A DNA stretch of 64,000 nucleotides from a virus, in IMG/VR virus record IMGVR_UViG_3300028883_000033, positions 83,645 to 147,644 of that record; one strand, given 5' to 3'. The notes beneath the pieces are model-generated. The model was not told the DNA's origin. It did no database searches and saw only the letters and a program-made list of their open reading frames with translations. The position numbers were made by a program, and so were the translations under genes. Positions 34,975 to 63,648 of the stretch are shown piece after piece. Every line of letters starts with the position of its first letter. The stretch's first letter is position 1.

Positions 34975-37900
34975 CTATATTCCTGCTGTTTTAATGCCAT
35001 ATAAATAGTAATTTCCACTCACAAAATTGCCGCTACTCCATAGTAATTGGCAACCATCAACCTTACCATTTTGTGGTGAAGCTATACGTTTTCCCCACAT
35101 ATGGGTAGCTGCTTGGGCGCTATTGAAGGCGGTCTCGTAAGAACTATACGACCACCATGTTGATGATATACCATTTACATCAGCAGCATGGCAATGTATA
35201 ACCGCATTGGTTCTGTCACCTGTATCTGTGCCTGCCCCAGTAGTTATCTGGAACGCGGTCTGGTTTGTGGAGTAAGTTGGTGCTGTCGCTACACTCTGTT
35301 CAGTATAGTCGTAAGTGGAAAGTGTTTTCACAGTACCGTTCTCTCGCGTTCTTAACAGCAACTTAGCATTATTGGATGATGGGTGTGCATTGATTATTAC
35401 GATCTTTAGCTCTGTGTAATCAGATGGGAAGGGGATAGTAATTGAAGATACTGCTCCTATCGCACCACTAGATATTACCTCCCATGCACCACCGCCACCA
35501 GATGATACTGCATCATCAACATATTTCTTATTAGGGATGTCGTCATCATCAGTAACAAGTGTTTCATAGTCAGTTGTACCTGAAACATTTAATGTTCCAT
35601 TATCCTCAATTATTAACGCTGTAGTTAAACTGCTACTAGTTTTAAAATGCAACTGTCCTTGAGTAGAACTTGCACCACGATAACTTGTGATTTCTGCCAT
35701 AGAGTTGCCAGCAAGATCACGGAAGCGAATTGCAGCTTTATCAGAACTGTTTGCATTGTTAGCACCATAAAGGTCTAACTCTCTTGCAGGACTTGCAATA
35801 GCACCTATAGCACACCTACTAGCAACGGCTATTTGCTGCGAACTATTAATTACTAATGCTTCGGTTTTAGTACCTGTTCCAGTATAGAAGGTTGCATTGC
35901 CAGCCGATTCATCCCACTTAAAGAAGACATCAGCACCATTTCTCAACAGTAGATCGCCACCATTAGTGTGTGATGCACCATACGCAACCATATTCGCACC
36001 AGCTGCAGAACCACTTCCACCTGACAGTACTATTGCCGCATCACCATCTCTATGTACTATAGAAAAGGTTCCACCATTACCAACATCCAATATGCTACCA
36101 GATAACTCAAACATAGGAGTCTTAGCAGCAGTACCAGTAGATATAGTTAAGGAGCCAGCTGACTCATCCCATTCAAAGAAAGGATTGTTGTTAGCTTGCA
36201 GTATGACATCATTCGCCAGCGTAGCGTGGGTGCTACCATACATGATAAGGCTTGATGAGTTTGCTGAACTTCCTCCACTTCGAATAGTAAGAGACCCATC
36301 ATTGACATACTTGTTGATGACAGTTCCACTTGCAGCGGTTAGCCCACCGACCGAGATAATGTTATCAACAACCTGTATCATTTCAAAAGTAGCATTATCA
36401 TCTATACCAATTGAAGTGAATGTTCCTGTTGATAACGAAGTGGTTACCAAATCAGGATTAACTCTCAACCCAGCAGTTGAATTTTGCAATAATGTGCTAT
36501 CAGTTTTAATATACAACTTAGCGTCTGTTCCGGTACTTGATGCGGAACCGTTTTCAGTTAATATCAAACCACCATTAGTTGCATCATATAAATCAATTCC
36601 AATCTCATCGCTCGGAAGTTCTTTAATACCGGCGCCAAGATTTGCGTTGATCGTCTCGCCGCTAATTTCTAAACCAACACCTGCTGTGATTGTACCAGGA
36701 CCAGAAATAATTACCCATACGTCAGTATCATTGTGATACAAGTACGACTGACCGAAATGAGAACAATCAGAGTTGTTACATAATACTGTAATACCGTCAC
36801 GGATTTCTGGTTCCGCTGTACCGCCTGTAGAAACAACAGTTGCCTCTTCGACAGTAACAGTTGCACCTGAAACGTTGGAAATAGTATACACACCGTTGCC
36901 AGCAGAACCACCAGCATATGTGAAAGTATTACCGACTTTCATCGAACGTGACTGATCTGCAGCCATCGTAAAGTTGCTCGATGCATCGACAGAAGTTACA
37001 GCAAATGTAACTCCACCGGCACGACCGTGTGGGAAATCCCAGTTTGCAATCTGTCTTGGATCAGCACTAGTAGCACCAACGTAAACAGCAATGTCATCTT
37101 TGACCATACCAGAAGGAAGGGTTCCTTCGTTGTCTACAGATGCAACGTTGAACCCAACGCCAATGCGTGTTTCGACGCCATCAATGTTACCATCAACTTC
37201 CCAGTGATAACCACCAGCACCGTCTGATGTCCAGTGAACCATGTCATATTCATTAACTGATACACCACCAGTCCATGTTTGTGAATATGTACCACCATAA
37301 GCAATGTACATACCAGAAACGATAGGAGTTGATGGTTCTGATGAAACGATATCAACTAAATCAGGCTGTGCAACAGGATCTTGCCATACCACACTACTTG
37401 AAACTAATGCATCAACATATGCTTTTGACGTTGCAGATGTAGCTCCTGAAGGAGTTGTAGGAAGACCGCTTACTTCACCACCACCTGTAAAGATCAAATT
37501 TGCGGCTGAATTCATAGTATCGCCAGCCTTCTCGACCCATACGTCACCAGCACCACCTGCTTCTAACCCAGCGAGTTTTGTTTCCTCGGCAGATGTATAT
37601 GATGCTGTAGTGTTTTGAAGAATCGTTGAGAATGCTTGGATTGTAGATCCGATATCAGCATCTTTGAGAATTGTGGCATCAGCTGGCTCGTAGTTGCTTG
37701 CAGCCGCTGCAATACCATTATCCACATATTGTTTGGTTGCAGCATCGTTGTTTGATGCGGGGGCGGCAAGACCTGTGATTGATTCGCCGTTCATATTGAA
37801 ACCGACCTGAACCTGGATTGGATTCGCGTCGGATGATGTCAGGTTATTTCCCGCTTGCAGTGAAAGAGTACCCTTCATTTGAATGATACCTGTTCCATCT

Positions 37901-38247
37901 GGCAAGAATTCAATATCTCCAGACCCTTGTGATTTTACCTGGATATTCTGATCATCATCCGCAGATAGTACGATCGTTCCAGAACTCTCTTCGATAACCT
38001 TCTGGCCATTAACATATAACGATCCTGGGCCGATGAACACGTCCTGCCACATATGAGTAGCAGATCCTAGAGATCTGGTGTTATCAACATCAGGGATGAT
38101 GTCCTGGCTTACCGCTGACAGATCCAACGCGTTGCTGATATCTGATATTGTTGTTTTGTAGGTAGTGCCGCCCTGGACTATTACAAGTTCTTCTGTTCCT
38201 GAAAGGGTACCGGCAGCCGGCAGCTCACTAATTTTTTTAGATGCCAT
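34975..38247 (-). CDS. Second tail fibre / tail spike-type protein
   Basis: 1090 residues. The start MASKKISELPAAGTLSGTEE and GGTTYKTTISDI is typical of phage fibre N-termini. The shaft repeats AAPASNNDAATKQYVDNGI and DDIPNKKYVDD are shared with the fibre at 17056. Unlike that fibre there is no S74 chaperone; it ends in a short beta domain (YYLYGIKTAGI). Two adhesins suggest that host range can change. Stop is TAG. Confidence 0.9.
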   Translation of the reverse strand: MASKKISELPAAGTLSGTEELVIVQGGTTYKTTISDISNALDLSAVSQDIIPDVDNTRSLGSATHMWQDVFIGPGSLYVNGQKVIEESSGTIVLSADDDQNIQVKSQGSGDIEFLPDGTGIIQMKGTLSLQAGNNLTSSDANPIQVQVGFNMNGESITGLAAPASNNDAATKQYVDNGIAAAASNYEPADATILKDADIGSTIQAFSTILQNTTASYTSAEETKLAGLEAGGAGDVWVEKAGDTMNSAANLIFTGGGEVSGLPTTPSGATSATSKAYVDALVSSSVVWQDPVAQPDLVDIVSSEPSTPIVSGMYIAYGGTYSQTWTGGVSVNEYDMVHWTSDGAGGYHWEVDGNIDGVETRIGVGFNVASVDNEGTLPSGMVKDDIAVYVGATSADPRQIANWDFPHGRAGGVTFAVTSVDASSNFTMAADQSRSMKVGNTFTYAGGSAGNGVYTISNVSGATVTVEEATVVSTGGTAEPEIRDGITVLCNNSDCSHFGQSYLYHNDTDVWVIISGPGTITAGVGLEISGETINANLGAGIKELPSDEIGIDLYDATNGGLILTENGSASSTGTDAKLYIKTDSTLLQNSTAGLRVNPDLVTTSLSTGTFTSIGIDDNATFEMIQVVDNIISVGGLTAASGTVINKYVNDGSLTIRSGGSSANSSSLIMYGSTHATLANDVILQANNNPFFEWDESAGSLTISTGTAAKTPMFELSGSILDVGNGGTFSIVHRDGDAAIVLSGGSGSAAGANMVAYGASHTNGGDLLLRNGADVFFKWDESAGNATFYTGTGTKTEALVINSSQQIAVASRCAIGAIASPARELDLYGANNANSSDKAAIRFRDLAGNSMAEITSYRGASSTQGQLHFKTSSSLTTALIIEDNGTLNVSGTTDYETLVTDDDDIPNKKYVDDAVSSGGGGAWEVISSGAIGAVSSITIPFPSDYTELKIVIINAHPSSNNAKLLLRTRENGTVKTLSTYDYTEQSVATAPTYSTNQTAFQITTGAGTDTGDRTNAVIHCHAADVNGISSTWWSYSSYETAFNSAQAATHMWGKRIASPQNGKVDGCQLLWSSGNFVSGNYYLYGIKTAGI

Positions 38248-46865: not shown

Positions 46866-48413
46866 TTAAGCATCGTCCAAGAATATATCGAACAGAGTTT
46901 CTTGATCCTGCATATCAAACACCGCTCTGGTTTTTCCTTCCGAATCAACCGACTCCAACTTAACATTATATCCCCACAGGTAGGCTAGAAAGTTCAGTGT
47001 GTCGACGGTTTGTTCCGGATTGAGCGGAATATTATTAACCATGAAGTGTCTGAGAGTCATGGTGCGATCGCCCCACCGGTCAACGTCTACCACCTGAATA
47101 TCAGGAATCATGTACCCGATGTTGTACTGCGTTGACAGGTCGTTGCGAATCCGTTTGTACCCCTGACGATTATGAATAGCAGCAACTTCCAGTTTTGGAT
47201 CATCTTCATCGTCGTGGATGTTGAATAGCTTAAAGTCACGAATGACCTTTGGTGTCAGGTATTGTTGGATAAAACTCTCATCCTTGAAATTAGCCCATGC
47301 GTGATGCAACGCGCTAACATAGTCGCCAGATCCAACCCATTCTTGATTGCCAAACCAGTCACGGTCTTCGTCTGTTGGGTTAGTAGCAACACGCTCAATA
47401 TCTTGCATCATTGCAAAACCGAGGGCATAGGGATTGATACCACTGTAACGAGGATCATCAAAGTCTGGTTGAAGGATTACGTTGGTGTGTGACACCAAGA
47501 ACTCTTTATATGCGCTATCGTCAATAATGCGTTCGTCATAAAGATCACGCATGATCTTGTAATGCACATATGTGGCACACCCTTCGTTCATTACCTTTGT
47601 TTGCATTTGTGGGTAAAAGTATTGACCCATCTTACGAACGATGCGAATGATTTCACGCTTCCAAGGTTCAAGACGAGGAGCATTCTTTTCAATAAAATAC
47701 AGAAGGTTTTCCTGAGGCTCTCTAGGAAACTTATCTGCGTTGTCATTGTCTGCTGATTCAGACTTCGTGCGTGGAATTGTATTCCAGATTTCATTAACCT
47801 GGGATTGAATATAAGCATCGCGCTCTTTGCGTTGCTTTTCCTCTTCAGCTGCAGACATGCGTGGTGGACGTTTGTACTTATCCACTCCATGGTGCTGCAG
47901 AGAGTGAGCTGCGTCAAGCACCGCTTCCACTTCATCAATACCATATCGCTCTTCACACTGACGGATGTACTTCTTGGCAAATGCAAGATAGTCGATAATG
48001 GCTTCAGCGTCAGTCCACTGCCTGAACAAGTAGTTGTTCTTGAAGAAGTGGTTGTGTCCAAAAGACGCATGTGCGATGACAAGCGTTTGCATCATCATCG
48101 TATTCTCTTCCATCAAGTAAGCAATGCATGGGTCGGAGTTGATAACAATTTCATATGCCAAGCCCATGTATCCACGTTTATATGATTCCAGCTGTTTGAC
48201 AAATGCCTCACCAAAAGACCAGTGAGCATACGACAATGGCATACCCACGCTAGTGTATGCGTCAAGCATCTGTTCAGAAGTAATCACTTCTAGCTGGTTG
48301 GGATAGAAGTTTAGACGGTACTTCTCGCGAGCTATACGGTCAATGTGACTGTATACCTCTTCTACGAGATCAAACGTCCAATCTTGCCCTGATGTTACAA
48401 TCGGTCTAGTCAT
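46866..48413 (-). CDS. SpoVR family protein (YcgB-like)
   Basis: 515 residues from the ATG at 48413 (CGGAGA in front). Matches SpoVR across its length: DWTFDLVEEVYSHIDRIARE, LNFYPNQLEVITSEQMLDAY, YAHWSFGEAFVKQ, YEIVINSDPCIAYLMEEN and FGHNHFFKNNYLF. In bacteria ycgB sits with yeaG and yeaH, tied to stationary phase and stress. Last gene of a three-gene operon here, then a terminator. Very unusual cargo. Confidence 0.95.
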   Translation of the reverse strand: MTRPIVTSGQDWTFDLVEEVYSHIDRIAREKYRLNFYPNQLEVITSEQMLDAYTSVGMPLSYAHWSFGEAFVKQLESYKRGYMGLAYEIVINSDPCIAYLMEENTMMMQTLVIAHASFGHNHFFKNNYLFRQWTDAEAIIDYLAFAKKYIRQCEERYGIDEVEAVLDAAHSLQHHGVDKYKRPPRMSAAEEEKQRKERDAYIQSQVNEIWNTIPRTKSESADNDNADKFPREPQENLLYFIEKNAPRLEPWKREIIRIVRKMGQYFYPQMQTKVMNEGCATYVHYKIMRDLYDERIIDDSAYKEFLVSHTNVILQPDFDDPRYSGINPYALGFAMMQDIERVATNPTDEDRDWFGNQEWVGSGDYVSALHHAWANFKDESFIQQYLTPKVIRDFKLFNIHDDEDDPKLEVAAIHNRQGYKRIRNDLSTQYNIGYMIPDIQVVDVDRWGDRTMTLRHFMVNNIPLNPEQTVDTLNFLAYLWGYNVKLESVDSEGKTRAVFDMQDQETLFDIFLDDA

Positions 48414-48423
48414 GCTTTCTCCG

Positions 48424-49713
48424 TTACACGTTGCCCGGCTTCTTCTCAAACAAGCCTCGGAACACTGGATAAATTTCCGCGACGTCTGATATCACTTGAG
48501 TTGCGAAGTTGTCGTTCGAAGTTCTGAGTTTCTCATAGTATGGCCACAAATCGCTGTCTTTGCCACCACGACGATCAATCTCCACATATGCATAGTACTG
48601 AATGTATCGTAGCATATGTTGTAGCAGATCCACCGCCACTTCTGAGTCAGCTCCCCAGTTATCTCCATCCGATGCCTGACAAGCAAAGATGTTCCACTGC
48701 TGAGGGTTGTACCGCTCTTCGATGATTTCCTTCATGAGCTCGAGGCTTGTTGATACTAACGTACCGCCCGTTTCTCTTGAATAGAAGAACTCTTCTTCGT
48801 CAACCTCTTTGGCGGAGGTGTGATGTCGAATGAAAATGATGTCAACTCGCTCATAGTTGCGGAACAAGAACATGTACAGCAACATAAAGAAGCGTTTAGC
48901 CATCTCTTTTTCCCACTCTCCCATACTAGCCGAGACGTCCATGATGGCAAACATTACAGCCTGTGTGGCTGGAATGGGAACCTTCTCCCAACGGTTGTAG
49001 CGAAGATCAACATCATCAATAAACGGAATAGCTTTGATTTTGCGCTTGAGAGCAGCAATCTCCTCTTCGAGTTCGAAGATGCGTTTATGATTGTTCTCTT
49101 TGTCGTCCTGTGCCAGCAAAAGCTCGAGTTCTTCTTCCAATTCTCTTAGCTTTTTCTTCTTCGGCGAACGAAGAGCAAGTCGCCGAGTCTTAGACTGACG
49201 CATTGAGCGTTCAATGTTCAGCCTGGATGGGTTGCCGTCCACAGCGAATCCTGCTCGACGATTAACCCACTCATCTACTTTCGAGATCTCTTTCTTCACG
49301 AGATCGGGAAGTTCAAGATCCTCAAAGAAGAGGTCAAGAAATTCTTCTCGAGTTAGGTGGAATTCGAAGCTATCATCGCCTTCACCATCAGGAGAGGCTT
49401 GATTACCACCGCCACCGCCACCACCTTGAGGTGGTCGGTTAATACGATCGCCTTGTGTGAACTCCTTGTTACCAGGGAAAACTCGATCAGTTACACCACC
49501 TTTATCTTGTTGGAACGTAGGTTGCTTCAATCCCTTTCCAGGAATCTTGATCTTCTTACCATCTTTACTGGTAATATCTTTGATGTTACCATCACGGATA
49601 GTTTTCTTTACAGCTTCGCGGACTTGTTCTTTGACACGACGGACGTACCGCTGACGGTTTACGGTGCTTTTACCTTTGTCGTTTTTTCTGCGGTCGATAA
49701 TAATATGTGCCAT
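48424..49713 (-). CDS. YeaH/YhbH family (DUF444, vWA-like) protein
   Basis: 429 residues. The N-terminus has a nucleic-acid-like basic region (NRQRYVRRVKEQVREAVKK). A glycine-rich section follows (about 95-105). The C-terminal vWA domain has DVSASMGEWEKEMAKRFF (MIDAS DxSxS), FIRHHTSAKEVDEEEFFYSR and ACQASDGDNWGADS. YeaH works with the kinase YeaG/PrkA in E. coli. Ten bases before SpoVR. Confidence 0.95.
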   Translation of the reverse strand: MAHIIIDRRKNDKGKSTVNRQRYVRRVKEQVREAVKKTIRDGNIKDITSKDGKKIKIPGKGLKQPTFQQDKGGVTDRVFPGNKEFTQGDRINRPPQGGGGGGGNQASPDGEGDDSFEFHLTREEFLDLFFEDLELPDLVKKEISKVDEWVNRRAGFAVDGNPSRLNIERSMRQSKTRRLALRSPKKKKLRELEEELELLLAQDDKENNHKRIFELEEEIAALKRKIKAIPFIDDVDLRYNRWEKVPIPATQAVMFAIMDVSASMGEWEKEMAKRFFMLLYMFLFRNYERVDIIFIRHHTSAKEVDEEEFFYSRETGGTLVSTSLELMKEIIEERYNPQQWNIFACQASDGDNWGADSEVAVDLLQHMLRYIQYYAYVEIDRRGGKDSDLWPYYEKLRTSNDNFATQVISDVAEIYPVFRGLFEKKPGNV

Positions 49714-49744
49714 AATTAGTTCCTGTTTGTTAGTTCGATATTAT

Positions 49745-49760
49745 GGGGCCCGAAGGCCCC
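49745..49760 (-). terminator. Hairpin between PrkA and YeaH genes
   Basis: GGGGCC-TTCG-GGCCCC stem-loop in the 64-base gap; no T run, so more likely an mRNA-stability or attenuation element than a full terminator. Confidence 0.5.
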
Positions 49761-49777
49761 ACCTTCGTGACTCACAA

Positions 49778-51736
49778 TCAGTTATGCTTACGATAGCGCA
49801 TGTACCATTCGACCAGCAAGCGAACTTGCTTCTTCGTGTAGCCCTTCGACATCATACGTGATACGAACTCGTTGTGTTTCTTCTCTTCATCTTCCGTCTG
49901 CTTCTTGCTGAACGAAATGACTGGGAGCAGATCTTCGGTGTTCGCGAACATCTTCTTCTCGATGACCTCACGCAACTTCTCATAGCCAGTCCAATCAGGA
50001 CTCTTACCGCCATTGTCAGCGCGGAAGCGGATGACGTAACCGACAACTTCGTTTCGGAAGTCTTTCGGGTTGCCGATACCAGCAGCTTTTTCGATCTTTT
50101 CCAACTCACTGTTCAGTGAATCGCGATCAAACATCTCGCCAGTATCTGGATCGCGGTAATCCTTATCCTGCAGCCAGAAGTCGGCGTACATGATGTAACG
50201 ATCGAACAGGTTCTGGCCATACTCGTGATATGACTCGAGGTACGCTTTCTGCAATTCATCACCAAGGAACTCAGCAAAATCTGGTGCCAGGATTCCCTTG
50301 ATAAACGAGATTCGCTTTTCCTCTTCTTCGGAACCTAACTCTTCGTGTTTCAGAGTCTTCTCGAGGATGTGCATCAAGTGAATTGGGTTTGCGGCCAGTT
50401 CACTTGGATCGTAGTTGTATACCTTCGACAGGATCTTGAATGCGAAGCGAGTGGATGAACCATTCATCCCTTCGCGAACCCCAGCGTCTTCGCGGTACTC
50501 CTCAAGCGACTTCGCTTTTGGATCTTTATCTTTCAGGTTCTTGCCGTCATAGATTTCCATCTTTGAGAACAGGCTGCTGTTGTCAGGCTCGACGAGACGT
50601 GACAGAACTGAGAAACGAGCCATCATTTCCAGCGTTCCTGGTGCGCATGGGGCCTCAGACAGTTCGCTGTTTGCAATCAGCTTCTCGTAGATTTTCACCT
50701 CATCAGAAACACGAAGGCAGTAAGGGACCTTGATGATGTTAACACGATCGAGGAACGCTTCGTTGTCTTTGTTGTTGCGGAACTTCGTCCATTCAGACTC
50801 GTTTGAGTGAGCCAGAATAACACCCTGGAAAGGCATTGCTCCAAAGCCAGATTCGGTACCGTTGTAGTGACCTTCCTGTGTGGCGGTCAACAGTGGGTGC
50901 AACATCTTGATGGGAGCTTTGAACATCTCAACGAACTCCATCACGCCCTGAGTTGCGATATTCAGACCACCGGAGAAACCATATGCGTCAGGATCATGCT
51001 GGTCATACTCTTCCAGCATGCGGATATTGACTTTACCGACCAGGCTGGAAATGTCCTGGTTGTTTTCATCACCAGGTTCAACCTTTGTAATACCAACCTG
51101 TTTAAGGATGTCGGGCCACATTTTGACGACTTTGAATTTACTCAGATCGCCTTCAGCCTCTTCCATACGCTGGACGGCCCATGGCGAAATGATGTACTTC
51201 AGGTAGCGACGAGGAATACCATACTGCTCCTCGATTTCAGGACCATCTTCATCTGGATCGAACAACCCAAGAGGAGACTCATAGATAGGAGAAATTTCCC
51301 ATTTGTCGGTCCTGGCATTATATGCCTTCAGTACATAGATAGGAACACGCTGCATCAGCTGCTTCAGCCTTTCTGACAGAGACGATTTACCACCACCAAC
51401 AGGGCCCAAAAGGTAGAGAACCTGCTTGGATTCCTCCAAGCCCTGAGCAGCGTGTTTAAAAAATGATACGATTTGCTCAATCGTTTCTTCCGCACCATAA
51501 AAATCCCCAAATGCTTGTGGGTAAATTTTGATTTTGCGGTTAGAAAAGATTCGACTGAGACGGTCATCTCTGCGGGTGTCGATCACTTCTGGCTCTCCAA
51601 TTGCCATCAACATACGCTCTGCAGCGTTGGCATAGAAGCCCCGATCTTCTTTACATCCTTCGAGGTATTCCTCAATGGACATTTCTTCCGCTTGGTACCG
51701 TTCGTACCGATTTTGGTATTTCGAAAAAATACTCAT
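49778..51736 (-). CDS. prkA: PrkA family serine protein kinase (YeaG-like AAA+)
   Basis: 652 residues, the same as bacterial PrkA/YeaG (about 640). It includes the AAA part GPVGGGKSSLSERLKQLM (Walker A), SPLGLFDPDEDGPEIEEQYG and the C-terminal kinase-like domain (MNGSSTRFAFKILSKVYNYD). Preceded by a TTGACA-17-TACTAT promoter (51781-51809), with AGGAGAT as ribosome site. First gene of the PrkA-YeaH-SpoVR operon. In E. coli YeaG alters nitrogen-stress and stationary physiology. Confidence 0.96.
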   Translation of the reverse strand: MSIFSKYQNRYERYQAEEMSIEEYLEGCKEDRGFYANAAERMLMAIGEPEVIDTRRDDRLSRIFSNRKIKIYPQAFGDFYGAEETIEQIVSFFKHAAQGLEESKQVLYLLGPVGGGKSSLSERLKQLMQRVPIYVLKAYNARTDKWEISPIYESPLGLFDPDEDGPEIEEQYGIPRRYLKYIISPWAVQRMEEAEGDLSKFKVVKMWPDILKQVGITKVEPGDENNQDISSLVGKVNIRMLEEYDQHDPDAYGFSGGLNIATQGVMEFVEMFKAPIKMLHPLLTATQEGHYNGTESGFGAMPFQGVILAHSNESEWTKFRNNKDNEAFLDRVNIIKVPYCLRVSDEVKIYEKLIANSELSEAPCAPGTLEMMARFSVLSRLVEPDNSSLFSKMEIYDGKNLKDKDPKAKSLEEYREDAGVREGMNGSSTRFAFKILSKVYNYDPSELAANPIHLMHILEKTLKHEELGSEEEEKRISFIKGILAPDFAEFLGDELQKAYLESYHEYGQNLFDRYIMYADFWLQDKDYRDPDTGEMFDRDSLNSELEKIEKAAGIGNPKDFRNEVVGYVIRFRADNGGKSPDWTGYEKLREVIEKKMFANTEDLLPVISFSKKQTEDEEKKHNEFVSRMMSKGYTKKQVRLLVEWYMRYRKHN

Positions 51737-56071: not shown

Positions 56072-56147
56072 TGGTGCCCCGTGCAGGAATCGAACCCGCG
56101 ACACAGAGATTTAGAGTCTCCTGTTCTAACCGCTGAACTAACGGGGC
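56072..56147 (-). tRNA. Amber-suppressor-type tRNA, anticodon CUA
   Basis: A complete 76-nt cloverleaf. Acceptor GCCCCGT pairs with ACGGGGC, A73 then encoded CCA. The D stem GTTC/GAAC, anticodon stem GGAGA/TCTCT, loop CTCTAAA, 5-nt variable loop and T arm GCGGG-TTCGATT-CCTGC are all intact. Positions 34-36 read C-U-A, which decodes UAG. The loop CUCUAAA is the same as in known amber-decoding tRNAs. The 5' end abuts the TAG stop of the gene upstream. Charging amino acid is not known. Confidence 0.9.
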
Positions 56148-56696: not shown

Positions 56697-56966
56697 CTAC
56701 TGGTTCGGGCATTTATCCTGCCAAGTTTCCAACTTGTATTTGTAATACTCAGAGGTTGGGTCCTCTCTAACCTTATCTCTGTACCATTTGAGCTTAGTTC
56801 CACAGCGGTCTTGCTGTTCTTCTTGGATCTTCTGATATTGTTCTTTTTCAATGCGCAGCTCGTACACATTATCCCACCAATCTTTAACCCAAGTATCAGT
56901 TCCACCATCCATGGCGAAAGCGGTAGGTGCAAACATCAAAACAATGATTATTGATATTCTTTCCAT
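56697..56966 (-). CDS. Small exported protein
   Basis: 89 residues. A signal peptide MERISIIIVLMFAPTAFAMD, cleaved probably after AFA. The mature part is helical, rich in Trp and Lys, with two cysteines (DRCGTK and DKCPNQ). Overlaps the preceding gene by 19 bases. Stop is TAG. Could pair with the membrane coiled-coil protein upstream. Confidence 0.6.
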   Translation of the reverse strand: MERISIIIVLMFAPTAFAMDGGTDTWVKDWWDNVYELRIEKEQYQKIQEEQQDRCGTKLKWYRDKVREDPTSEYYKYKLETWQDKCPNQ

Positions 56967-57298
56967 CTTTCTTTTATCTCAGTTAGTTGATCACGGTACG
57001 TTTCCAATTGAAGCCATTTCCGCTCTGGGACAACCTCGCCGTTCTTTAACGCGGTGTCAATTTCGCGTTCCATTATACGTATACGCAAGGCCAAATCATC
57101 TTTGTGGAGCTCAATCACATCAAATGTGGATCGTTTGATCTCTTTTGTTATCTGAACAGTACTAGCTGTGACTGCACTCTTAATCTGTTTATCAATCGTG
57201 AACCACAGACCTAAAGTTGAAGTTATAAATGCAACAATCGCACCGCCAGTAGCTAGTGCAACCTTCAGGTTAAATTTATTTGGTGTATCATCACCCAC
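56948..57298 (-). CDS. Membrane-anchored coiled-coil protein
   Basis: 116 residues from the GTG at 57298 (GGGAG about six bases upstream, overlapping the neighbour's stop). One membrane segment (about 12-35, VALATGGAIVAFITSTLGLW) then a long helical stretch (ELHKDDLALRIRIMEREI). Arrangement resembles an inner-membrane spanin with the small exported protein as partner; unproven. Confidence 0.6.
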   Translation of the reverse strand: MGDDTPNKFNLKVALATGGAIVAFITSTLGLWFTIDKQIKSAVTASTVQITKEIKRSTFDVIELHKDDLALRIRIMEREIDTALKNGEVVPERKWLQLETYRDQLTEIKERWKEYQ

Positions 57299-57434
57299 TT
57301 TTAACTCCCTCCCTCCCTGAGGTGTTTGGTTCCTCAAACTGTTTGTCCTTAATCGAGCGAAGCGAGCGCGACTTTTTAAGGCCACGCTCATACTTTGCTT
57401 TCGTTTTAGGATCCTTTAACTCAAACAGTTTCAT
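57291..57434 (-). CDS. Small basic protein
   Basis: 47 residues, MKLFELKDPKTKAKYERGLK then SRSLRSIKDK. Its N-terminus resembles the MKLFEVINE start of the basic protein at 9100. The start overlaps the stop of the discoidin-like gene (TAATG). Not recognised. Confidence 0.55.
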   Translation of the reverse strand: MKLFELKDPKTKAKYERGLKKSRSLRSIKDKQFEEPNTSGREGVKSG

Positions 57435-58850: not shown

Positions 58851-60350
58851 TTACTCAGCCCGGATAGCGGCGTACCGCTCCTGGTTGAGCACTTCCAGCA
58901 TGAGATCATACGCGCTGGTTGCCTTGTTAGACAACAGGCTCGTGAAGATGCTTGGGGAGCATCCACTCACCAACTGGAAGCCGCGCTGGTCCATAGACAT
59001 TGGCTGCTGGTCGTTACGGGAATCAACGTTCCAGAATACCAGGAATGGCATTTTGTAACCAGCCTCAGTGTAACGACGCTCGATTGTCTGGAACAGACGC
59101 TCGTCAACGTTGCCACGAGAGTGCCAGCCGTCACCAGTTGCTGCATCGAATTCCATGTCGGAGACGATGTACAGGTGAGTTGGTAGCTCGTCCTGAGACG
59201 CACCAGTTTTCTGTGCTGTCTTCAAAATCAAGTTGAATACAGCTTCAATGTCGGTGTTCATATCCCAGGCAGCGCGAGAAAGGTTACGAACCTTTTCTGC
59301 AATGTCGCTGCCCTCAACCGTCTGAAGGGTTGGGCGTGCGCTGAAGGTAATGAACTTACCAGCAAACGGACCACTGTTACGCTCTGCAGTGTAAATGGCC
59401 AGAGAGATAGACACGTCCATTGGACGGCCACTCATAGAGCCAGATACGTCTGCTACTACGAGACCACGAACTTCGTTGTCGCCAAAGTAGTTAGGCAGTG
59501 CGTTCCACATTGCATCCAAAGATGCGTCATCCGCGCTTTTACCGCGGCCATAACCATAGCCACCGCACTTTTCAACGATCTCGTATGGGTACAGGGTACC
59601 CGCGTTGATCGTCTTCGTACCAGACTTAACTTCCTCCAGGAAGTGAGCGTAACGCTCTGCATCGTGGCGGTAGAAAGCCTTACGGTACTGCAAGCCTGCT
59701 TTTGAAGGCAGCTTGTCATACTGGATTTCACTCCAGTTGTTTTCAGAAATTGTCTGCTCCACCAGCCCGATCTTTGAACGGATCGCAGACAGAGTCTTAC
59801 GATACTGACGTGGGCTCATGTTTAGAGCCTGACGGGTCTTACGGCCATAGCGCTTGGTGGTAGAAGAACTTGCGTTCTCACTAGCCAGCCACTTCGCGAG
59901 CAGAGACGGATTGTCACTGTTCATGTCTTCAGCGAGCTGAACGTCGATCACAGTGAACATATCTTCTTCCAGATCGGTATCGATCAAGGAATACAGGTCG
60001 TCCCAGCGACCATACTCTGCAATCAAAGGCAGATTGGCGCGGACAACTTCCGGACGGTTTACCGCAAGGTGGTTCAACAGGATACGGAACGTACGACGCT
60101 CGCCCTGACCACCGCGGATATCCCGGAAATAGAACATGGCCTTTGTGGCCAGCAGAGGGTTCTCTGCATATGCCTTCTCGAATACGTTGACGATGCTGGA
60201 CTCATCGCGTGAACGCAAAGCTCCACCATTGGCGAAGAAGTCCAGAACGGAGCTATTCGTTGAAGCGAAAGCTACCGCACCATTTTCCGTGAACGCAACG
60301 TTGCCGTCGCCGTTCATTGTGGTTTCCAATTCATCAAGATAATTTACCAT
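58851..60350 (-). CDS. DUF2828 / Ro60-like protein with vWA domain
   Basis: 499 residues. The first about 270 are helical repeats (LATKAMFYFRDIRGGQGERR). The C-terminal vWA domain has VADVSGSMSGRPMDVSISLA (MIDAS DxSxS) and YIVSDMEFDAATGDGW. This is the DUF2828 layout, distantly like the RNA-binding ring protein Ro60. Ro proteins bind non-coding and damaged RNA. A terminator hairpin follows. RNA-binding here is inferred. Confidence 0.85.
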   Translation of the reverse strand: MVNYLDELETTMNGDGNVAFTENGAVAFASTNSSVLDFFANGGALRSRDESSIVNVFEKAYAENPLLATKAMFYFRDIRGGQGERRTFRILLNHLAVNRPEVVRANLPLIAEYGRWDDLYSLIDTDLEEDMFTVIDVQLAEDMNSDNPSLLAKWLASENASSSTTKRYGRKTRQALNMSPRQYRKTLSAIRSKIGLVEQTISENNWSEIQYDKLPSKAGLQYRKAFYRHDAERYAHFLEEVKSGTKTINAGTLYPYEIVEKCGGYGYGRGKSADDASLDAMWNALPNYFGDNEVRGLVVADVSGSMSGRPMDVSISLAIYTAERNSGPFAGKFITFSARPTLQTVEGSDIAEKVRNLSRAAWDMNTDIEAVFNLILKTAQKTGASQDELPTHLYIVSDMEFDAATGDGWHSRGNVDERLFQTIERRYTEAGYKMPFLVFWNVDSRNDQQPMSMDQRGFQLVSGCSPSIFTSLLSNKATSAYDLMLEVLNQERYAAIRAE

Positions 60351-61206: not shown

Positions 61207-61659
61207 TTAGAACGTAATGATGTTTTCTGTTGCTGGCCACGATGGAGTATATGTGACAGAATATATCGTTGTCCAATCAACAGCATTGTCGGAATACTGA
61301 AGATCGACTTGCGGTAGAGCATATGCACTATTTTGCCAGAATTTCATCTCAACAATTGCTTTCTCATTTCCAGCACCAAAGTCCTGACCTACCCACTCCC
61401 CAACATCAGGACCGGCAGGCTCCCAATACTCACCACCGGAAATGCCAACACCGGTGTTGTTGAATGCCTCTTGTCCAGTTCCACTACTTGCAATAGCAAA
61501 GCTCGTTGAGGTCACATCAGGGCCTCCCACACTTTCTCTCATTTCGATTTCACAAATGATTGCTCGTGGATGGTTCATTGCTGTTATTAACATGCGCCAA
61601 TACCGGTGCGTGGCCGACGCACCTGTTCCTTCAACATATCCCATTACCAAATATGGCAT
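61207..61659 (-). CDS. Discoidin-like (F5/8 type C-like) protein
   Basis: 150 residues. YWRMLITAMNHPRAIICEIE, GEWVGQDFGAGNEKAIVEMK and LQYSDNAVDWTTIY follow the discoidin-fold order found in carbohydrate-binding phage proteins. N-terminus MPYLVMGYVEG is shared with the next gene upstream (MPYLVLGLTQG). Third gene of the metacaspase operon. Confidence 0.7.
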   Translation of the reverse strand: MPYLVMGYVEGTGASATHRYWRMLITAMNHPRAIICEIEMRESVGGPDVTSTSFAIASSGTGQEAFNNTGVGISGGEYWEPAGPDVGEWVGQDFGAGNEKAIVEMKFWQNSAYALPQVDLQYSDNAVDWTTIYSVTYTPSWPATENIITF

Positions 61660-61671
61660 AATTATTTCCTG

Positions 61672-62355
61672 TTAATATGGTGCTGCAGGTGGTGTGAAAT
61701 TCTCCGTCCAGGCAGCACCCGATGCGTAACGAAACTCGTCGATATAAATGTTGCTGGCCGGGAAATTCCCTGTTCCGTATCTTGCACCAATAGCAAATTG
61801 GGTAGATGCAGCATCTCTAGTGCTGTGACCTACCCACTGTGGTCCGAACACTCCATCAACAGCAACGTTGATAAATCCATCGTCGCGTCTAATGAATGCG
61901 TAGTGTGTCCATGTATTGGCCGGAATGGTGGTATTAAGAATACCACCACCGTTAGAAGCGCTACTCCATACGTTCCACGATTGGACAAGGTCAGTTCCTG
62001 ACGTATGGGCCTGTGGACCATATGCACCGCCAATAAGACCACCTGAGAACAACCCCGCAGTTCCCAACGATCCAGTCCGATAAAGCCAAAAGTCTATAGT
62101 GAATGCGCCAAATCCAACAGCAAGTGATGCATCACTCACCAACAGCGCACCAGCTGTAAATTTCAAACTAGAAGTTCCAAATTTTGATTGTTCGGTGCTA
62201 TGAACTACTGTTCCAGTTGTAGAGATAGTAAGACCGCTAGCAGAACTGTCAGTGAATGTTGTGCTACCATTCGTAGTATCCGAATGAACAAGTAACAGAT
62301 TGGTAACTGGGTTAGTTCCCAGACCTTGCGTTAGTCCTAAAACCAAATATGGCAT
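61672..62355 (-). CDS. LamG / concanavalin-like lectin-domain protein
   Basis: 227 residues. SSLKFTAGALLVSDASLAVG, AFTIDFWLYRTG, NTWTHYAFIRRDDGFINVAV and YIDEFRYASGAAWTENFTPP are the strands of the LamG-like jelly roll typical of phage head decoration or tail-associated lectins. It starts within the stop of the metacaspase gene (TAATG) and has GGAGG upstream. Likely virion surface protein. Confidence 0.8.
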   Translation of the reverse strand: MPYLVLGLTQGLGTNPVTNLLLVHSDTTNGSTTFTDSSASGLTISTTGTVVHSTEQSKFGTSSLKFTAGALLVSDASLAVGFGAFTIDFWLYRTGSLGTAGLFSGGLIGGAYGPQAHTSGTDLVQSWNVWSSASNGGGILNTTIPANTWTHYAFIRRDDGFINVAVDGVFGPQWVGHSTRDAASTQFAIGARYGTGNFPASNIYIDEFRYASGAAWTENFTPPAAPY

Positions 62356-63431
62356 TACATACCTCCACCAAAAATTGCCACTGCCGCAATGACTACAACT
62401 ATCACGACGGCTATAATGATTTTCTTCTTATCTTTTTTCTTACCGTCATCGTCGTCATCGTCATCAGGCTTGCTTGGAGCGGGGCCTTCAGGATCCGTAT
62501 CAATTACCGGTGGGTTTGGTTCTGGTTGTGATGGGGTAGATGGCTCCTCAACAACAGGCTCTTCTTCCTCTACCCCTTCAGGTTTTTTTCCGCCAAGAAA
62601 CTTCTCCTCAAACAGAGCGGCACTACCGTTCAATTCAGGACGCTGCGAGAAACGATTGGTGACCATAAACTGGTTCATCTCATCGACGAGCTGCTTGTAT
62701 GAGACGTCATAATTGTGACGCTTCAGTGTGGAGATCAGAGAGTATGTAGCAGCTCCACAATACATGTTACTGATCCACGCATCTGCTGAAGTCTGGTTAG
62801 ACTGACATCCTGTAACCAGCATACCTGTTGTATCAACATCACGAGCTACTGGTAGCTTGCGAGTACTCAGATCTAGGCCCATTCCGCGGTTAGCAATATC
62901 TGCAGGCATTGGAAGCATACGAGAGCGGTTTGGACTATCTGGACCAAACTCACGAGCTTCGCCTATGCCAAGAGGCTGATACTGGTTTGCGTGGTCGAGT
63001 ATGGAACCACTGTGGCAGCAATCAGTAACGACTGTTAAGTGAACACCAGCAGGAACTTTGTTGAAAATAGACTTCAGCATGTCGTCTGTGATAACCTTAT
63101 CACGCCAGTTCAAATCAACCGGACATAGGATTTCATCAAGACCATCCGGCTCTTCGTCGGAGTCGTATTTGCTGTCAATCATCTGAGAACCGTGACCGGA
63201 GAAATGGAAGAACAGGGAGTCGCCTGCTTTTGCATCCTTTACCAGCCAGTCGAGGCGTTCGAGAATATTCGCAGTAGTTGCCGCCTCATCGGTCAGCATG
63301 CGTTTTTCTTTTGTTGAAAAACCGAACTGCTTTGTCAGCATTTCGGACATCATGTTTGCATCATTTACGCAACCACGTAGTGGTGCTGAGGGATATGCGT
63401 TAATCCCGACAATAAGAGCTTTCTTAGCCAT
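62355..63431 (-). CDS. Type I-like metacaspase with C-terminal membrane anchor
   Basis: 358 residues. The caspase-fold (Peptidase C14) is strong: MAKKALIVGINAYPSAPLRG, CVNDANMMSEML, FFHFSGHGSQ with catalytic His80, DGLDEILCPVD and VVTDCCHSGSILD with catalytic Cys139. Residues about 285-335 are a Pro/Glu-rich linker ending in a run of aspartates and KKKDKKK. The last about 20 residues are purely hydrophobic (IIIAVVIVVVIAAVAIF), i.e. a tail anchor. Late AATAAATA is upstream with AAGGAGG before the ATG. Target unknown. Confidence 0.95.
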   Translation of the reverse strand: MAKKALIVGINAYPSAPLRGCVNDANMMSEMLTKQFGFSTKEKRMLTDEAATTANILERLDWLVKDAKAGDSLFFHFSGHGSQMIDSKYDSDEEPDGLDEILCPVDLNWRDKVITDDMLKSIFNKVPAGVHLTVVTDCCHSGSILDHANQYQPLGIGEAREFGPDSPNRSRMLPMPADIANRGMGLDLSTRKLPVARDVDTTGMLVTGCQSNQTSADAWISNMYCGAATYSLISTLKRHNYDVSYKQLVDEMNQFMVTNRFSQRPELNGSAALFEEKFLGGKKPEGVEEEEPVVEEPSTPSQPEPNPPVIDTDPEGPAPSKPDDDDDDDGKKKDKKKIIIAVVIVVVIAAVAIFGGGM

Positions 63432-63462
63432 GACAAATCCTCCTTGATTAGGGGCGCATGAC

Positions 63463-63470
63463 TATTTATT
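63463..63470 (-). promoter_or_regulatory. Late promoter AATAAATA of metacaspase operon
   Basis: 32 bases before the metacaspase ATG, with AAGGAGG between; overlaps the stop of the 60-residue gene. Confidence 0.7.
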
Positions 63471-63648
63471 CTTCTTCGATGATTCCTAGGGTCTTCTTCA
63501 AGTTCTTAGCTTCTTCAAGCATCCGTTTTGTGTGTTCTTTATTTAACTCACCAGTTTCGCGGGCTTTTTTGATTTTCTTGCACAGTTTATCTAGCTTATG
63601 TCGGAATACCTCTAGGTACCCCTCAATTTTGTGTTTTTTCTTGCTCAT
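63466..63648 (-). CDS. Small Lys-rich helical protein
   Basis: 60 residues, MSKKKHKIEGYLEVFRHKLD and a coiled helix to the end. A GGTAAATA element stands five bases before the ATG. Function unknown; could bind nucleic acid. Confidence 0.6.
   Translation of the reverse strand: MSKKKHKIEGYLEVFRHKLDKLCKKIKKARETGELNKEHTKRMLEEAKNLKKTLGIIEEE

Follow-up and report, generated by a model that had tools for sequence, protein, structure and literature searches.

The window, the whole stretch of DNA analyzed here, is composed of 64,000 nucleotides and spans positions 83645-147644 of a virus record 147,644 bases long. At the end of this contig sits a gene for a metacaspase. Metacaspases are cousins of animal cell-death enzymes, and caspase-fold proteases in bacteria are mostly discussed as host death or immune effectors. 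A preliminary description of the locus had placed the gene correctly at 62355-63431 without a strand, which is minus. The features of the locus are as follows.

61207-61659, minus strand: second gene downstream of the metacaspase, 150 aa, F5/8 type C-like fold, kin to phage tail/virion proteins (phrog_11660, tail, 2.2e-10; Pfam F5_F8_type_C 2e-5, just below the cut-off)
61672-62355, minus strand: gene directly downstream, 227 aa, LamG/ConA-like lectin domain, kin to baseplate-wedge-associated phage proteins (Laminin_G_3 4.4e-9; phrog_13163, baseplate wedge, 4.3e-15)
62355-63431, minus strand: metacaspase gene, 358 aa, stop codon included (open reading frame and translation; Pfam PF00656; Foldseek against solved metacaspases, E down to 1e-25)
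62367-62438, minus strand: C-terminal hydrophobic helix, residues 332-355, a predicted tail anchor (Kyte-Doolittle; AlphaFold helix; similar tail in three related phage proteins)
62430-62591, minus strand: disordered Pro/Glu/Asp linker with a D7 run and a basic KKKDKKK stretch, residues 281-334 (composition; low pLDDT over 281-331)
62592-63431, minus strand: caspase/metacaspase catalytic domain, residues 1-280, with p20- and p10-like parts and without an N-terminal prodomain
62994-62996, minus strand: Asp146 codon, equivalent by alignment to TbMCA2 Asp220 and CgMCA-I Asp245, which are Ca2+ ligands (PMC4357240, PMC9622860)
63015-63017, minus strand: codon of the catalytic Cys139 (DCCHSG), from the translation
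63192-63194, minus strand: codon of the catalytic His80 (SGHG), from the translation
63437-63444, minus strand: ribosome-binding site AAGGAGGA, from the sequence
63463-63470, minus strand: late-promoter-like motif AATAAATA, 31 nt before the ATG (positional test of ATAAATA)
63466-63648, minus strand: upstream charged open reading frame, 60 aa, from the ORF list

The open reading frame is a genuine metacaspase of a T4-like phage, and this identification is solid. PF00656 (Peptidase_C14) matches residues 3-269 with E=2.3e-35 and 122.8 bits (cut-off 21.4), and the complete C14 domain reported earlier, with His80 and Cys139, is present. The closest solved sequences are those of yeast metacaspase-1 (4f6o, 5e-38) and T. 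brucei MCA2 (1e-34), with Candida metacaspases also among them, and phmmer aligns residues 3-271 with yeast Yca1. AlphaFold, run on a 72-sequence alignment of phage and cellular proteins, gave a model of mean pLDDT 84.4; an earlier 6-sequence alignment gave 64. The model has a confident caspase domain at residues 1-280, with pLDDT >90 over most of it, a disordered linker at ~281-331, and a helix at 332-355. The best PDB matches found by Foldseek are all metacaspases, namely Arabidopsis MCA-IIf (E=1.2e-25) and the C. glabrata and yeast enzymes (~1e-17), with MALT1 next, and the TM-score against solved metacaspases reaches 0.73 by target. A profile search and a structure prediction had been proposed as a check in the preliminary description, and both lead to this family and fold. 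A chance or fragment ORF is ruled out by fold, conservation, and the ribosome-binding site.

Both dyad residues are invariant in the 72-row alignment, as are Asp24 and Asp137. The latter are the alignment equivalents of Asp95 and Asp211 of TbMCA2, which form an acidic S1 pocket for Arg/Lys (PMC4357240). A p10-like part is present, since residues 203-271 align with the p10 region of yeast Yca1; within it, the AlphaFold model has strands and helices at 203-258. The first strand begins at residue 3, leaving no N-terminal prodomain, and the bacterial relatives likewise lack one. Many type I metacaspases, though not all, have such a prodomain, which is not strictly defining. Judged by its sequence, the enzyme belongs with the type I-like metacaspases (MEROPS C14B) and is probably active. 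Residues 169-179 (62894-62926, minus strand), in the loop that follows the catalytic Cys, contain a conserved R-[FYM]-L-P-P/M-P motif that is also found in relatives. Its Arg171 is Arg in 65/72 and Lys in 6/72 of the aligned sequences, and the loop is possibly a self-cleavage or substrate-mimic loop.

The carrier of this gene is a T4-like phage, of which the contig is a fragment. It encodes the gp23 major capsid protein (E=2.7e-92), the gp21 prohead protease (E=1.9e-29), and a terminase, together with a gp43-type DNA polymerase, topoisomerase II, RNR, a distal tail fiber, and tail tube, sheath, neck, and baseplate proteins. The gp23, terminase, gp21, polymerase, topoisomerase, and tail fiber genes rule out a binning artefact or a bacterial contig. 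The start of the LamG gene overlaps the metacaspase stop (TAATG), and the metacaspase is by this arrangement predicted to be translationally coupled to virion-type genes. The LamG and F5/8C-like proteins have the same MPYLV start.

A single-sequence scan of IMG/VR returned no relatives; alignment scans recovered them, with 47 metacaspase loci and then several more, giving ~50 further viral-contig metacaspases. A terminase is recognizable in 20 of the 44 checked records (43 from viruses or phages and one MAG), many of which are fragments. The protein of locus L013 is 56% identical to the window protein over residues 1-356, and that of L008 is 43% identical. The window protein and those of L013, L008, and L150 form one clade, and the latter three are the nearest relatives of the window protein. 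Support is 100/99 for the window protein with L013 and L008, an SH-aLRT of 99 for L150 with L008, and 93 for all four. A tree of 119 proteins has at least six virus-cell changes, and the metacaspase gene has therefore moved repeatedly between cells and phages. L055, a relative from Fermentibacteria with a terminase on its contig, was counted as viral in later trees, and the cellular set came from a pattern-based, non-exhaustive scan with 80 proteins fetched. Among 399 Pseudomonadota genomes and 19 of the L132 phylum, the full-length query turned up no cellular relative that was closer or carried an anchor. At p-AU 0.49, an AU test leaves a special kinship of the window clade with eukaryotic metacaspases standing as a weak possibility.

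Outside IMG/VR, such genes are scarce. Each of five metacaspase queries run on 50,697 GenBank phage records matched LR745208.1 alone, a 485-kb uncultured phage without annotation. A structure search of BFVD had giant-virus metacaspases or caspase-domain proteins as its confident matches and no phage proteins among them. No description of phage-encoded metacaspases was found in a literature search over a collection with few subscription papers and no bioRxiv preprints, and caspases, proteases, and peptidases are unmentioned in the main text of the huge-phage paper.

The genes around the metacaspase differ among the window, L013, L008, and L150 phages, and the flanking ORF of the window has no similarity to the gene after the L013 metacaspase. 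Clustering of neighbors at 46 viral loci gave no general partner gene, only Hsp20 in L008 and L150. In L150, the metacaspase with its predicted tail anchor is directly followed by a phage Hsp20 and a phage ClpS (2738-3515) and then by a SufBD-core protein.

The C-terminal part of the protein is a linker and a helix. Residues 281-334 include 12 Pro, 9 Glu, and 10 Asp, the protein tail reads ...DDDDDDDGKKKDKKKIIIAVVIVVVIAAVAIFGGGM, and the Kyte-Doolittle value is 3.23 over the 19 residues 338-356. The Pro/Glu linker, poly-Asp run, basic residues, and terminal hydrophobic helix noted at the outset all bear up under composition, hydropathy, and AlphaFold. The layout fits a tail anchor, with a single C-terminal hydrophobic helix, KKKDKKK before it, and about 3-6 residues after it. 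By the positive-inside rule, a basic flank before a helix and almost nothing after it place the N-terminal domain in the cytoplasm. The helix of the window protein has such flanks, as expected of a tail anchor, and the N-terminal protease domain apparently lies on the cytoplasmic side of the inner membrane. Among the ~50 viral relatives, only L013, L008, and L150 have a comparable tail, again with basic residues directly ahead of the helix and few behind it; the end of L039 is weaker and amphipathic. A C-terminal hydrophobic helix is absent from all 80 cellular relatives that were fetched.

The putative Ca2+ site also sets the clade apart. TbMCA2 binds Ca2+ through Asp173, Asp189, Asp190, and Asp220 (PMC4357240), and D99, D116, D117, and D146 of the window protein occupy all four of these positions. 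The residue of C. glabrata MCA-I that corresponds to Asp220 is Asp245, which binds Ca2+ and orders the loop bearing the catalytic Cys (PMC9622860). This fourth position, seven residues past the Cys, is Arg in 76 and Lys in 3 of the 79 scorable cellular relatives. In phage proteins, it is Asp in the window, L013, and L008, Asn in L150, and Arg or Lys in most others. The distribution suggests that the window clade is Ca2+-gated and that its relatives are wired differently. The window metacaspase should be Ca2+-dependent and should cut after Arg/Lys.

The preliminary description also named a T4 late promoter and a ribosome site. The latter, AAGGAGGA, does precede the metacaspase ATG. Of the promoter claim, the canonical TATAAATA falls away, as it is neither at the metacaspase gene nor clearly enriched in the window; the variant AATAAATA stands, and although its count shows no clear enrichment in the window either, its ATAAATA core is positioned far above chance. 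Of the 39 ATAAATA sites in the 147-kb contig, 17 have, 18-34 nt further on, the start of an ORF of >=100 aa that is equipped with a ribosome site; the other 20 permutations of its letters reach 0-27% (median ~5%). The runner-up permutation, AATAAAT, overlaps the ATAAATA motif itself. Among the genes downstream of ATAAATA are those for the tail tube, a neck/head-tail adaptor, the baseplate hub, a gp25-like wedge, the tail sheath, and the distal tail fiber. ATAAATA also comes out on top of the permutations in the phage of L013 (9/26 sites), where it likewise stands ahead of tail, neck, and baseplate genes, and AATAAATA lies upstream of the L013 metacaspase among different neighbors. Assessed by position, rather than by transcripts, in two contigs that are both fragments, ATAAATA behaves as a late promoter core of the window phage would. 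Its position before late-type structural genes agrees with the late expression predicted earlier. The 3' end of the upstream 60-aa ORF overlaps the late motif, and the metacaspase thus appears to open a new transcription unit. Neither the anchor, which recurs in three related phage proteins, nor the late motif, which recurs in at least one, looks like an accident of the window contig.

Eukaryotic type I metacaspases (Yca1/Mca1, C. glabrata MCA-I, and T. brucei MCA2) match the phage protein in fold, in the His/Cys dyad and the S1 aspartates, in a Ca2+ site of four Asp with the Asp220 equivalent among them, and in having p20 and p10 parts. The phage enzyme differs in having no N-terminal prodomain, in its predicted C-terminal tail anchor, in being phage-encoded, and in its late-type signal. 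Bacterial single-domain metacaspases (Thermodesulfobacteriota, Nitrospirota, Myxococcota, and others) share 40-45% identity, domain length, and catalytic and S1 residues with it, but they have no C-terminal anchor (0/80) and carry Arg/Lys at the fourth Ca2+ position (79/79 scored). Seven cyanobacterial species have metacaspases with a C-terminal transmembrane helix (PMC3501461), so the anchor architecture is not unprecedented in biology. These also place an intracellular caspase domain before the helix but are cellular. Fadolivirus, clandestinovirus, medusavirus, and Heterosigma virus encode proteins of the metacaspase fold, but these giant viruses have eukaryote hosts. The Peptidase_C14 proteins of other IMG/VR contigs and LR745208.1 are viral-contig-encoded too, and are mostly single-domain, without an anchor, and of diverse lineages and neighborhoods. 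Orthocaspases are prokaryotic and without p10 (PMC8283722), whereas the window protein has a p10-like part; the Ca2+ independence of orthocaspases rests on one cyanobacterial enzyme (PMC7475262). A caspase-containing bacterial defense system would be expected to show a full-length match to the defense profile and sensor or partner genes. The PADLOC 'caspase' match of the window protein is partial (residues 4-177 on 4-130 of 453 profile positions), and no defense partner genes were seen among the scanned neighbors, the adjacent ones being virion-type. The window protein is a known kind of enzyme in an unusual carrier, with an architecture specific to one phage clade.

Our favored reading, with a probability of about 0.38, is a Ca2+-dependent Arg/Lys metacaspase that is made late, tail-anchored on the inner membrane, and activated by Ca2+ inflow when the membrane is breached. 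The enzyme would be produced late in infection from a late promoter of the ATAAATA type, and its flexible acidic linker and C-terminal tail anchor would hold it at the inner membrane, on the cytoplasmic face. Because free Ca2+ is low in the bacterial cytosol, the anchored metacaspase would be mostly silent until a breach. Holin opening, a depolarizing host suicide effector, or a superinfecting phage could each provide one. The inflowing Ca2+ would activate the protease exactly at the membrane, where it would cut host or phage proteins, and the benefit would most plausibly be help with the final stage of infection. Family and fold, the dyad, the S1 and Ca2+ residues, the sequence of the anchor, the late motif, and the recurrence are observed; the activity, orientation, Ca2+ gating, substrate, and benefit are what we infer. 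Some observations count against the Ca2+-gated membrane protease. The fourth Ca2+ position of L150, a member of the clade, is Asn; the hydrophobic helix might conceivably be a virion or protein-interaction helix instead; and no partner gene conserved across the clade was found, the neighbors differing among the four phages. That a T4-like phage clade turned a bacterial metacaspase into a calcium-triggered executioner, by gaining an anchor and replacing Arg/Lys with Asp at the fourth Ca2+ residue for on-the-spot activation near lysis, is a tentative extension that we consider doubtful.

The preliminary description suggested three roles, all conjectural: triggering lysis, processing virion proteins, or cutting a host defense protein. 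The late signal and the neighbors can also be read as those of a virion-morphogenesis protease, which would work at the inner membrane, the site of T4-like assembly, on proteins of the tail, the baseplate, or adhesin type, with the coupled LamG and F5/8C proteins as substrates or partners. The metacaspase is first in the late unit and overlap-coupled to two virion-type proteins, its late motif is common to structural genes, and in the huge phage LR745208 the metacaspase lies near a vWA-like protein and other large ORFs. The window and L013 phages, however, each have a canonical gp21 prohead protease; the metacaspase is not a replacement for it, and head maturation by the metacaspase is unlikely because gp21 is present. 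Processing of tail proteins is possible, but the window neighbors are not kept beside the metacaspase in L013, L008, and L150, and the morphogenesis reading as a whole is doubtful. The predicted membrane position could equally serve counter-defense or superinfection exclusion, by cleavage of membrane-associated host abortive-infection proteins or of incoming-phage proteins. The patchy distribution with its virus-cell transitions would suit this role, and the partial PADLOC match recalls that bacterial defense systems include caspase-like proteins. Given a late rather than early expression signal, a match to only part of that profile, and no anti-defense neighbors seen, we regard counter-defense as unlikely.

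A role in proteostasis, in which the enzyme would trim misfolded or aggregated proteins and pass the fragments to host Clp proteases, has a parallel in the aggregate clearance reported for yeast Yca1. Both sister phages, L008 and L150, have an Hsp20 gene a short way downstream of the metacaspase, with ClpS next in L150, and these two genes are rare among 32 metacaspase-bearing records (Hsp20 in 5 and ClpS in 3). L008 and L150 are related, so they count as one observation, and neither gene was found in the 147-kb contig of the window or the 110-kb contig of L013. We consider this role improbable. Metacaspases are common in bacteria, and the gene might be a recently captured and functionally idle host gene, but the dyad and pockets are intact, many phages carry relatives, the anchor is clade-specific, the gene has its own predicted late promoter, and its GC content is 0.47 against 0.45 for the phage. 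Idle capture is thus very improbable.

Here the virus itself carries a caspase-fold protease, predicted to be membrane-tied, in its late gene set, and relatives occur in ~50 viral contigs yet are essentially missing from annotated phage genomes. If the enzyme is active, bacterial viruses would use a death-type protease for their own ends. It would then offer a small single-gene model for studying the substrates of prokaryotic metacaspases, and a test of Ca2+ entry as a usable signal at the end of phage infection.

Several other genes of the window are of interest. About 5 kb downstream of the metacaspase, two overlapping small genes (56697-57391, minus strand) encode, as read from their translations, one protein with a signal peptide and another with an N-terminal-in membrane helix and a coiled coil; the two may be a pair of the spanin or holin type. 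A 499-aa, TROVE/vWA-like DUF2828/DUF7788 protein (58851-60350, minus strand) matches phrog_850, annotated as RNA-binding, with E=2.9e-148. Adjacent SpoVR, DUF444 (YeaH/YhbH-like), and PrkA serine kinase (YeaG) genes (46866-51736, minus strand) make up a bacterial stress triad, and the PrkA shares 59-67% identity with its counterparts in phage LAU1 and some huge phages. A tRNA with anticodon CTA (56072-56147, minus strand), labeled tRNA-Pyl by ARAGORN, is a predicted amber suppressor. TAG is the rarest stop (8/102 long ORFs) and little coding length is gained by opening it, which gives no indication of recoding. A 1090-aa protein without a PHROG match (34975-38247, minus strand) contains a segment with 47-60% identity to proteins 2-5 kb from the metacaspases in three related phages, L016, L026, and L030. 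The segment is also matched in two proteins of the L013 phage and is probably a tail-fiber/adhesin module.
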